Source of the DNA: Streptomyces endocoffeicus
GTDB taxonomy: Bacteria; Actinomycetota; Actinomycetes; Streptomycetales; Streptomycetaceae
Reading direction: 5' to 3'
Assembly (NCBI RefSeq): GCF_016741935.1
Contig: NZ_JAERRG010000007.1
Coordinates: forward strand, 310,001-374,000
Length of the DNA: 64,000 bases
Each line of letters opens with the position of its first letter. Position 1 is the first letter of the stretch. Of this stretch, positions 45,333 to 47,926 are shown in pieces. The position numbers and the translations under genes were made by a program. Below the pieces are notes generated by a model. That model did no database searches. It saw only the letters and a list, made by a program, of their open reading frames with translations, and was not told the DNA's origin.

Positions 45333-46517
45333 TCAGCGCAGCGCTTCTTCGATCAGATCGGCCGCCCGCCCGGTGCCGCCCTCGGCCCGCACCTCGTCCC
45401 GCAGCCGCGCCGAGGTGCGCGCGACCTCCGGGTCCGTGGTGAGCTCGAGCAGCGCGGCACGCAGCACCTCGGCCGTGGCCTCCGCCGTCTCGAGGCGACG
45501 GGCCACGCCCAGTTCGACCAGCCGGTCGGCGTTCATCGGCTGCTCGGCACTCTGCGGTACGGCGATCATCGGCACCCCGGTGTACAGCCCTTCGCCGCTG
45601 CTGCCCATCCCGGCATGGGTGACGAAGGCGTCAGCCTCGTTCAGGATCGCCAACTGCGGCACCCAGCGGCGCACCTCGACGTTGCCCGGGATCTCCCCCA
45701 GCTCGGCCGGGTCGACGTACTTCCCGATCTGCAACACCACATGCCATCCGGGCAGCTCCCCGAAGGCCGCCACGCACTCCCGGTAGAAGCCGGGCTGCCG
45801 GGTGAAGGCCGAGCCCAGCGAGACCAGCAGCACCTTCTCCGCCCCGGCGGGCCGTTCCCACCGGCCCTGCCCGGCCCGGTCCCCGAGGCACGGCCCGACG
45901 AACGTCACCACCTCCTCGTCCACCCGGTCCGCGTTCGGCTGCATGGCCCGGGGGATCACCGCGACGGCCCGTTCGGGCCGCCCGCTGAAGACGTCGGGGT
46001 CCAGCGTGGTCGCCCCGCAACCCGCCAGCCACGACGCGAACTTCTCCTGATACGCGTCGGCCCCCGGCAGCGCCTTGAGCGCCGCCCCGACCTCCTCCAT
46101 GTAGCCCTCCCAACCCACGAAGGACGGCGAGAGCTGCAGCGTCGGCCGACCCTGCGCCTCGGCCAGGGCACGCCCGGCGTAGCCGCCGATGTCGTAGAGG
46201 TAGAGGTCGGCCGGATCGTCGTCATACGCGGCGCGCAGCTGCGGCAGCGCCTGGATCGCGTCGTCCAGGAAGACGGTGCCGGCGGCGATGGGGTCCTCGG
46301 GCCAGCTGTTGTCCGCGACGGGCAGCGTGGACCGGTACGGCACCAACGCGGCACCGGTGGGCTCGATGACGTCCGCGACGAAGGGATCGTTGGCGTAGGT
46401 CACCCGGTGACCGCGCGCCACGAGCTCGCGGATGACCTCGAGGCTGGGCAGGGTGTGGCTGATCGCGGGGATGCCGACCATGGCGATATGGGCACGGCGA
46501 CGGGACGGGCGTGACAT
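45333..46517 (-). CDS. Macrolide-type glycosyltransferase (OleD/MgtA-like)
   Basis: A 394-aa GT-B enzyme of the GT1 MGT family. The N-domain has HIAMVGIPAISHTLPSLEVIRELVARGHRVTYA with the catalytic His near residue 21, and the C-domain carries VLLVSLGSAF, NVEVRRWVPQLAILNEADAFVTHAGMGSSGEGLYTGVPMIAVPQSAEQPMNADRL, the UDP-sugar-binding signature. Characterised relatives inactivate macrolides by glycosylation. Its ribosome site (GAGTGATC, 4 nt before ATG) lies at the end of a long hairpin whose other arm is a nine-codon ORF, suggesting induction by translational attenuation. Confidence 0.9.
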   Translation of the reverse strand: MSRPSRRRAHIAMVGIPAISHTLPSLEVIRELVARGHRVTYANDPFVADVIEPTGAALVPYRSTLPVADNSWPEDPIAAGTVFLDDAIQALPQLRAAYDDDPADLYLYDIGGYAGRALAEAQGRPTLQLSPSFVGWEGYMEEVGAALKALPGADAYQEKFASWLAGCGATTLDPDVFSGRPERAVAVIPRAMQPNADRVDEEVVTFVGPCLGDRAGQGRWERPAGAEKVLLVSLGSAFTRQPGFYRECVAAFGELPGWHVVLQIGKYVDPAELGEIPGNVEVRRWVPQLAILNEADAFVTHAGMGSSGEGLYTGVPMIAVPQSAEQPMNADRLVELGVARRLETAEATAEVLRAALLELTTDPEVARTSARLRDEVRAEGGTGRAADLIEEALR

Positions 46518-46525
46518 GAGAGATC

Positions 46526-46633
46526 ACTCGTTTCAGGTCTACGGCGATATGGACACGACGAGCCGGCGCACGGGCGTGGTCACCGGTGCGCCGGAGAGAG
46601 CGGCGTGTCAGCCGTAGATCTGAAGAAACGAGT
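46526..46633 (-). promoter_or_regulatory. Attenuator-like hairpin in the leader of the glycosyltransferase gene
   Basis: On the minus-strand mRNA the segment 46633-46611 pairs with 46545-46526: a 9-bp outer block (ACTCGTTTC), a small bulge, 2 bp, one mismatch and an 8-bp inner block (TCTACGGC), about 19 bp in all. Inside lies a second GC-rich hairpin (46563-46571 with 46586-46594). The 5' arm is coding sequence of a nine-codon leader ORF, and the 3' arm contains the GAG of the gene's ribosome site. This is the layout of erm-type translational attenuators. It is inferred from sequence alone. Confidence 0.7.
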
Positions 46634-46637
46634 CCAT
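46608..46637 (-). CDS. Leader peptide MDSFLQIYG
   Basis: An ATG-started ORF of nine codons ends in TGA, 91 nt upstream of the glycosyltransferase ATG. Codons 2-9 lie in the 5' arm of the attenuator hairpin, so a ribosome paused there would free the downstream ribosome site. TACCGT lies 7 nt before the ATG and could be a -10 box, making the mRNA leaderless for this peptide. The sequence does not match the known IFVI, IAVV or RLR stall motifs exactly, so the stalling signal, if any, is new. Confidence 0.6.
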   Translation of the reverse strand: MDSFLQIYG

Positions 46638-46802
46638 GCGCGGAACGGTACCCCGGCCGGTCATCCCGCCGCCGCCCCTTTTCCTCCCGCCCCGCGGCCC
46701 GACTCAGCCCCGCGTAAGCACCCGCTCAGCGCCGGACCCTAGAGTCACGGAACGCGACGGGCCGTCTGTTCTCCCCCCCCTCTGACGGGCCGTCGCGCCT
46801 TA

Positions 46803-47063
46803 CTACGCCCAGTCCTCCTGGATGCGATCGAACGCACCCGCCTTGGCCCCCCGTATGAAGGCGCGCAGGGCGGCGGGGGTGGTGGTCAGGACGACGTCGG
46901 GGTCGTCGCTCTCGCGCAGCGCTATGCCGTTGCCGTCGGCGGCGACGTTCACGCAGTTGCCCGCGTCCCCGCTGTAGGAGGACTTCCGCCACGCGATCGC
47001 AACGTTGACGCAGTTGGACGAGTCTCCGCTGTACGAAGACTTCCGCCACTGGTACGTGGACAC
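46803..47063 (-). CDS. DUF397 protein with duplicated signature
   Basis: Start GTG 47063 after AGGGGAG; product 86 aa. DUF397 proteins carry one WRKSSYSGxxxNCVEVA motif; here it occurs twice in tandem 19 residues apart (WRKSSYSGDSSNCVNVA at 6 and WRKSSYSGDAGNCVNVA at 25), before the usual ALRESDDPD and PAALRAFIRG. These small proteins pair with XRE-type WhiJ-like regulators in Streptomyces and are thought to act as antagonists or partners. It follows the XRE gene directly and is presumably co-transcribed. Confidence 0.88.
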   Translation of the reverse strand: MSTYQWRKSSYSGDSSNCVNVAIAWRKSSYSGDAGNCVNVAADGNGIALRESDDPDVVLTTTPAALRAFIRGAKAGAFDRIQEDWA

Positions 47064-47074
47064 TCTTCTCCCCT

Positions 47075-47926
47075 TCACATGGTGCGCAAGATGCCATGGA
47101 TGAAGTCCCGCGACTCTCGCGGCTTGAGGGCGGTCATCTCCATCCGTTCCAAGACAGCCCGATACTTGGCCAACTCGGCCTCCGCGTCCATGAACTGGGT
47201 CCCTTGGGCAGAGTCGAGCTGCACTGTGTCGAGTTGCGGTACAGGTCCCACGACATAGTCGAACGATTGCCCGGTCCCGGGGAAGGTCCCGCCGCCGAAC
47301 GGAATCACCCGGATGGTGACGTTGTTCATCTCGCTCATGGCGAGGAGGTGCTCAAGCTGGACGCGGACCGTGTCCATCCCGCCGAACTCCATCCGCAGAG
47401 CGGCCTCATGGATGATCGCGGTGTACGGCACCGGCCTGTCGCCGTAGAGGATCGCCTGCCGCTTCATCCGGTGCGACAGCCGATGCTCCACTTCGTATGC
47501 CCGCAACGGTGGAGCTACTTCCCGGATCACCGCGCGGGCATGGTCCACGGTCTGGAGCAGGCCCGGGATGTGGATGACCAGCGCGACGCGCAGCCCTCGG
47601 GCCCGGTGCTCCAACTCGGCCATATCCGCGAAGCTGGCCGGGAGGTGTTCCCGGTACTCGTCCCACCAGCCCCGCGCGCGGCCACCCGTCATGTCCGCCA
47701 GCGCGTCCACAAGGTCCTCATCCGCACACGAGTAGGTGCGAGCCATCACGCGCACACGATCGCCACCCACGGCGTACCGGCCCGCCTCGATCATGCTTAC
47801 GCGGGCCTGCTGGACACCCAGCTCGGCGGCGGCCGCAGTGGAGGTCAGACCCGCGCGCTCACGAAGCTTCCGCAACTCGGCTCCGAGTCGTCGCTGCTTG
47901 AGCGTAGGACTACTGGTGGTCGCCAT
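47075..47926 (-). CDS. XRE-family regulator with DUF5753 (WhiJ-like)
   Basis: A 283-aa protein. The helix-turn-helix lies at about 10-65 (LGAELRKLRERAGLTSTAAAAELGVQQARVSMIEAGRYAVG). The DUF5753 domain follows (ALVIHIPGLLQTVDHARAVIREVAPPL, RQAILYGDRPVPYTAIIHEAALRMEFGG, VTIRVIPFGGGTFPG). Such genes form clusters with a DUF397 gene and an ATPase gene that influence development and antibiotic production. A GTTAG-AA-CTAAC palindrome in the divergent gap is a likely operator. Confidence 0.93.
   Translation of the reverse strand: MATTSSPTLKQRRLGAELRKLRERAGLTSTAAAAELGVQQARVSMIEAGRYAVGGDRVRVMARTYSCADEDLVDALADMTGGRARGWWDEYREHLPASFADMAELEHRARGLRVALVIHIPGLLQTVDHARAVIREVAPPLRAYEVEHRLSHRMKRQAILYGDRPVPYTAIIHEAALRMEFGGMDTVRVQLEHLLAMSEMNNVTIRVIPFGGGTFPGTGQSFDYVVGPVPQLDTVQLDSAQGTQFMDAEAELAKYRAVLERMEMTALKPRESRDFIHGILRTM

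Follow-up and report, generated by a model that had tools for sequence, protein, structure and literature searches.

The window, a 64,000-nucleotide stretch of Streptomyces endocoffeicus DNA, carries on its minus strand a gene for a glycosyltransferase of the enzyme family common to the OleD and Mgt macrolide glycosyltransferases. The product passes the curated model of the macrolide glycosyltransferase family (TIGR01426) with 390.8 bits against a cut-off of 260, and its closest solved structures are oleandomycin glycosyltransferases (OleD). It misses the cut-off of the macrolide-inactivating Mgt model (NF033129; 524.3 bits against 700). The enzyme probably inactivates macrolide antibiotics. 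Its start codon at 46517 is preceded by a leader of 120 nt, the features of which are collected in Table 1. The positions first given for the short open reading frame (ORF), the arm complementary to it, and the GC-rich inner hairpin agree with the sequence and its fold.

Table 1. Features of the glycosyltransferase gene, its leader, and its promoter (positions are those of the window).
Feature	Position	Strand	Basis
GT-B glycosyltransferase, macrolide (MGT) family, OleD-like	45333..46517	minus	TIGR01426 score and nearest solved structures
Ribosome site region ACGAGTGATCTCTC ahead of the start codon	46518..46531	minus	Many relatives have a GAGTGA-type sequence close to the start codon; others have the AAGGA type
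3′ arm GCCGTAGACCTGAAACGAGT, which can pair with the leader codons and extends into the ribosome site	46526..46545	minus	Sequence and fold; an arm like GCCGTAGANCTG could be anchored in 51 of 57 relatives
CGTGTC, second-helix partner of GACACG	46552..46557	minus	Paired in 81.7% of cells across 25 leaders
GC-rich inner hairpin in the loop	46563..46594	minus	Fold; sequence not conserved among aligned relatives
5′ arms of the conserved helices: CAGATCTACGGC (codons 6–9, 46622–46611) and GACACG over the stop (46609–46604)	46604..46622	minus	Alignment and column counts
Leader ORF MDSFLQIYG-UGA, ATGGACTCGTTTCTTCAGATCTACGGCTGA	46608..46637	minus	Read from the sequence; ORF of the same kind in 60 of 77 homologues
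-10 box TACCGT, 7 nt ahead of the leader ATG	46645..46650	minus	Leaderless transcript predicted
WblC/WhiB7-like box GAAAAG, separated by 3 nt from a weak -35, CGGCGG (46674–46669); 18-nt spacer	46678..46683	minus	8/10 against the published consensus

A search of 392 Streptomyces genomes provided 77 homologues (in 76 genomes) that are at least 69% identical among the matches listed. Conservation of the ORF among orthologues had been set beforehand as the test on which the preliminary description could fail. An ORF of 7–10 codons lies upstream of 60 of the 77, which argues that the window ORF is not there by chance. Where more than one start was possible (3 of the 60), the longer, box-bearing one was taken. 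Every one of the 60 stops at UGA, and 59 end in YG; the ends are [Q/P/E]-[I/L/F]-Y-G-stop, with the single exception REIY-stop. Among 15 homologues of 60–66% identity (from the genus sample, among the matches listed), none has the leader.

The wider distribution was scanned in 84,980 genomes with a pattern consisting of a -10 box, an ATG, any 6–18 nt, and CAG[A/C]TCTACGGCTGA. It matched 81 loci, all of them in frame despite the free choice of gap. The glycosyltransferase lies within 400 nt of the leader at 75 of these, one has an apparent remnant, and five end too soon. Twenty-three of the first 80 loci have the same leader and promoter as one of the 60 homologues; 57 remain, and the gene is seen in 53. 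The 81st (L239, S. murinus) was checked and stands outside the overlap count and the counts of promoters (118) and peptides (73) used below. Four loci (L180, L188, L191, and L200) have the leader though their glycosyltransferases are only ~61–67% identical. The hosts are mainly Streptomyces, and leader and gene are both found in Frankia, Parafrankia, Micromonospora, Nocardia, Nocardiopsis, Sphaerimonospora, and Sphaerisporangium; in Protofrankia the leader matched, and the locus ends after it. In Streptomyces sp. RKAG290 (L217) the leader MRFLQIYG is kept, and translation yields apparently only fragments of the glycosyltransferase. With a less strict codon pattern, F-x-Q-[NTN]-Y-G-stop, 33 matches were obtained in 392 genomes against one for its reversed control; 30 of the 33 precede the glycosyltransferase, and the remaining three look like chance. 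The leader-plus-ATG pattern, applied without the -10 box to 396 genomes of the phylum (12 from the genus), matched twice, both times in this family.

The 73 distinct leader peptides are 7–10 residues long, mainly 8–9, and their C-termini are nearly uniform, with Q in 70, I or L in 71, Y in 72, and G in 72. Position -6 is F, L, I, or M in 57 of them, position -5 and the N-terminus are variable, and the consensus is [F/L/I/M]-x-Q-[I/L]-Y-G-stop. The known arrest motifs of erm-type leaders are IFVI (that of ErmCL), IAVV, and RLR. None of them occurs in the 73 peptides, which have QIYG-like ends instead, so the lack of these motifs claimed for the window peptide extends to its relatives.

In all 60 homologues a TANNNT box starts 13 (40 leaders) or 12 (20 leaders) nt before the leader ATG, leaving 6–7 nt between box and ORF; the other positions tested from -20 to -7 have none. 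Only the 60 homologues count here, since the scan loci were chosen by their -10 box. In the available excerpts of a study of WblC targets, these have the form GAAAWY, 3 bp, TKGMNN, 16–19 bp, TANNNT, and most transcripts start 7–8 bp past the -10 element (PMC7157823). Together with the position of TANNNT, this distance places the predicted transcription start at the leader ATG, and the mRNA is therefore probably leaderless, as had been suggested from the window box alone. A transcript start that would cut the ORF out of the mRNA, the other condition set to refute the preliminary description, is thus not what the promoter sequences predict. Leaderless leader peptides are known for amino-acid genes of S. 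lividans, according to the excerpted text of PMC8079986. When 2–4 nt were tolerated from box to -35, a WblC-like score of at least 8/10 was reached by 85 of 118 distinct promoters of relatives, against 0.9% of shuffles, and one of at least 9 by 33 of the promoters. Judged by motif, the promoter fits the WblC/WhiB7-activated type.

The leader codons are complementary to an arm that reaches the ribosome site of the gene. The 138 nt round the window leader fold with a minimum free energy of -63.7 kcal/mol, compared with -44 (sd 3.8) for 200 dinucleotide shuffles, none of which is as low (z -5.18). In the fold, most of the ORF pairs with 46545–46526 beside the ribosome site, so that the hairpin of roughly 19 bp proposed at first is borne out as a long stem with three nucleotides bulged. 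Pairing and folding were tested on 57 leaders, three of the 60 being dropped because the gene start could not be assigned. The last four sense codons, CAGMTCTACGGC, face GCCGTAGANCTG in the arm; four of the 51 anchored arms lie 36–58 nt from the start codon and are probably misplaced. The arm and a following AA end exactly 14 nt ahead of the start codon in 32 of the 51, and 11 of the 12 positions of the helix pair in 39–51 of them (position 4 in just 12).

In a MAFFT alignment of 25 leaders, drawn from 34 chosen references, the 18 named pairs are formed in 78.4% of cells, compared with 25–47% when slid by 1–3 columns. Compensatory changes in the core helix, counted on the named structure in these 25 leaders, do not exceed those of shuffles; the leader arm hardly varies, and so no covariation is visible in its columns. 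RNAalifold found no long-range structure in the same alignment, owing to the variable loop length and four rows with divergent arms. Pairing a leader with its own arm gives -23.0, versus -21.2 with permuted arms (z -5.8), and 2 of 20,000 permutations are as good in a non-redundant set of 13. For the variable N-terminal half of the leader alone, 1 of 20,000 is as good (34 of 20,000 when non-redundant). Covariation is claimed solely from these permuted-partner tests, as the named structure has no compensatory change in excess of shuffles. Of the stem expected in orthologues, then, the pairing held, but the compensatory changes did not appear beyond shuffles.

The predicted exposure of the ribosome site rises when a ribosome is parked on the leader stop, from a mean of 0.35 to 0.42 across the 57 leaders, compared with 0.45 to 0.46 in shuffles (p 0.0015); the mean with the parked ribosome remains under the shuffled level, and the gain is above that of shuffles in just 39 of the 57. 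The window leader goes from 0.07 to 0.35. Exposure of the start codon is not raised by the parked ribosome (from 0.53 to 0.51 on average and from 0.68 to 0.28 in the window), and ribosome-site exposure does not differ significantly between leader-type genes and 16 operon-type relatives without a leader (0.436 vs 0.472, p 0.26). The erm-attenuator geometry seen at first stands as to the conserved ORF and helix, but the conserved pairing is limited to the final four codons and a few nucleotides beyond the stop, and the predicted sequestering of the ribosome site is stronger in the window (0.07) than in most relatives (mean 0.35).

From the ORF, its conservation, the placement of the promoter, the complementarity, and the link to the gene, we infer that the leader is likely a translational attenuator under WblC-type control, with ribosome stalling, the stall site, the drug, and induction as its putative parts. 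WblC-type activation, suggested by the promoter motif, would start a leaderless mRNA at the leader ATG. Without drug, ribosomes would complete the peptide of 8–9 codons and depart, and the leader codons would base-pair with the arm next to the ribosome site, so that less glycosyltransferase would be translated. If a macrolide occupied the exit tunnel, synthesis of the chain ...[F/L/I/M]-x-Q-[I/L]-Y-G would be arrested while Gly is in the P site and UGA in the A site. By covering the conserved helix, which runs from the Gln codon to a few nucleotides beyond the stop, the stalled ribosome would free the ribosome site, and the drug-inactivating enzyme would be made. The preliminary description was right to offer drug-dependent induction with caution.

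The stall is likely at termination, given that the conserved motif (QIYG-stop) is C-terminal. The narrow length range, the fixed stop codon, and a helix fixed to the stop likewise point to a ribosome held there after 8–9 residues, a chain length at which macrolides act. Judging by the usual size of a ribosome footprint, a ribosome on the stop codon would cover the conserved helix and one on the start codon only part of it. An improbable alternative is that the leader senses another ribosome drug (a lincosamide, streptogramin A, or pleuromutilin) by stalling at the start codon, as reported for are5scL1 and tiaAL of S. coelicolor. Such Streptomyces uORFs exist according to the excerpted text of PMC12421871, and vat and ABC-F genes adjoin many of these glycosyltransferases. 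Against this, the conservation is C-terminal, the helix keeps its position with respect to the stop and not to the start, and are5scL1 is described in the same excerpts as just three codons long (PMC12421871).

Macrolide arrest at a stop codon has a direct precedent. In the available part of PMC10314930, macrolide arrest on MsrDL (MYLIFM) occurs at termination, with the last residue in the P site and the stop in the A site, and the type of stop matters. In that account MsrDL acts on a Rho-independent terminator, with a preference for UAA, whereas the window leader has an unrelated peptide, UGA in 60 of 60 relatives, and no terminator that could be found. For ermC, the excerpted account (PMC10219788) describes a stalled ribosome on a short leader ORF (ErmCL) that changes mRNA pairing and exposes the ribosome site of the resistance gene. 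The window leader resembles ErmCL in its short ORF, and a putative stalled ribosome on it would likewise change the pairing and expose the ribosome site. It differs in that its ORF is predicted to be leaderless, its own codons are the direct partner of the arm next to the ribosome site, its C-terminus is QIYG-UGA rather than IFVI, and the controlled gene encodes a drug-modifying glycosyltransferase. The best reading by analogy is that it would work like an erm or msrD attenuator with a different arrest motif; membership of the erm class is not claimed, since the motif differs and stalling is only inferred.

Attenuation of transcription, by a terminator and anti-terminator or by Rho, has about the same slight probability as start-codon sensing; of all the alternatives, the sensing of other drugs at the start codon and the Rho-dependent form most deserve to be kept in view. 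Other antibiotic-responsive leaders of Streptomyces and Firmicutes use transcription attenuation, as the excerpts of PMC12421871 and PMC10314930 describe. The uORFs of whiB7/wblC and the are5sc and tiaA uORFs of Streptomyces are actinobacterial antibiotic-responsive uORFs, as the window leader would be (PMC12421871 and PMC11550727, in excerpt). They are described there as transcription attenuation, and the are5sc and tiaA peptides (MLV and MVGDDDISG) are unlike QIYG. In the window, however, no intrinsic terminator was found at positions 46450–46800, and the T runs in the 57 leader–gene spacers do not exceed four, which argues that these spacers have none either. An attenuator with an intrinsic terminator was accordingly rejected, as no hairpin with a T run lies between leader and gene. 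Rfam returned no family at its gathering score for 46000–47100 of the window and nothing on the leader strand. A strong inverted repeat at 46728–46798, in the stretch that separates the leader from the small gene upstream of it, may be a terminator; a sub-threshold match to 6C RNA lies on the plus strand at this repeat (23.5 bits against a gathering score of 47).

That the conserved nucleotides form an RNA or protein-binding element, with the ORF incidental, is less probable still. The segment CAGMTCTACGGCTGA is almost invariant in nucleotides, and Gly has no synonymous change. The final codons of the 60 leaders are CAG in 57, ATC in 45, CTC in 13, or TTC in 1, TAC in 59, GGC in 59, and TGA in all, so that CAG-MTC-TAC-GGC-TGA is nearly invariant and GGC serves 59 of 59 Gly codons. 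The leader ORFs were searched for on translated sequence and synonymous codons were thus permitted. In the glycosyltransferase genes themselves, only 56% of Gly is encoded by GGC, and 27 of 35 stops are TGA; both are commoner in the leaders, and so the nucleotides are constrained too. RNA rather than peptide may be the cause of part of the conservation. An incidental ORF is nonetheless at odds with the 81 scan matches, all in frame in ORFs of 7–10 codons, with an Ile/Leu codon that varies mostly among hydrophobic residues, with F, L, I, or M at position -6 of 57 of 73 peptides, and with a start codon at the predicted transcript end in 60 of 60. As an observation apart, all 59 Gly codons of these leaders are GGC, even where unpaired, and the P-site tRNA or the stop context may matter for arrest. 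Least probable of all is induction mainly by WblC-type transcription with a leader that only sets a constant level by reinitiation or coupling, which would suit the WblC-like box in 85 of 118 promoters and the small predicted exposure gains but leaves the conserved QIYG-UGA and the complementary arm beside the ribosome site unexplained.

The attenuator reading would make the leader a drug-specific layer under the general WblC response. Chances are about even that [F/L/I/M]-x-Q-[I/L]-Y-G-UGA represents an undescribed family of arrest peptides, on which macrolide-bound ribosomes would be held at termination on a leaderless mRNA, gating translation of a glycosyltransferase with WblC-type transcription as a second key, in many Streptomyces and seven other actinobacterial genera that have leader and gene. 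Macrolide resistance in Streptomyces lividans is reportedly inducible, as a 1991 title by Jenkins and Cundliffe has it. No report of the leader, its motif, or leader control of macrolide glycosyltransferases was found in the open-licence literature searched. A peptide of 8–9 residues with a nearly fixed QIYG-UGA would be a ready substrate for structures of macrolide-blocked termination.

The glycosyltransferase gene alternates between the leader and resistance operons. Of the 17 homologues without a leader, one is unreadable in the leader region. All 16 readable ones follow another resistance gene: in 13 it is a vat-like acetyltransferase (in one of them a remnant, judged by eye) and in three an ABC-F gene. 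The glycosyltransferase gene there is apparently read as part of another resistance operon. A vat gene is also upstream of 15 of the 60 leader-bearing homologues, with the leader lying in between. At one locus each, the acetyltransferase reaches 245 with the Vat_ABCDEFH model, whose cut-off is 300, and the ABC-F protein 383 with model NF000355, whose cut-off is 380. The order at L003, L047, L050, and L145–L158, all in other Streptomyces, is vat–glycosyltransferase, ABC-F–glycosyltransferase, or ABC-F–vat–glycosyltransferase, a compact multi-drug resistance operon. A TetR-like sequence lies beside some of these vat/ABC-F/glycosyltransferase loci by eye. Unlike the window gene, the OleD-type homologues (57–61% identity, 20 loci) are without the leader. 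Most of these 20, read by eye, have a palindromic, operator-like ACGAGACGTCTCGT near the start codon, and this palindrome (L009–L028) suggests repressor control in place of the leader.
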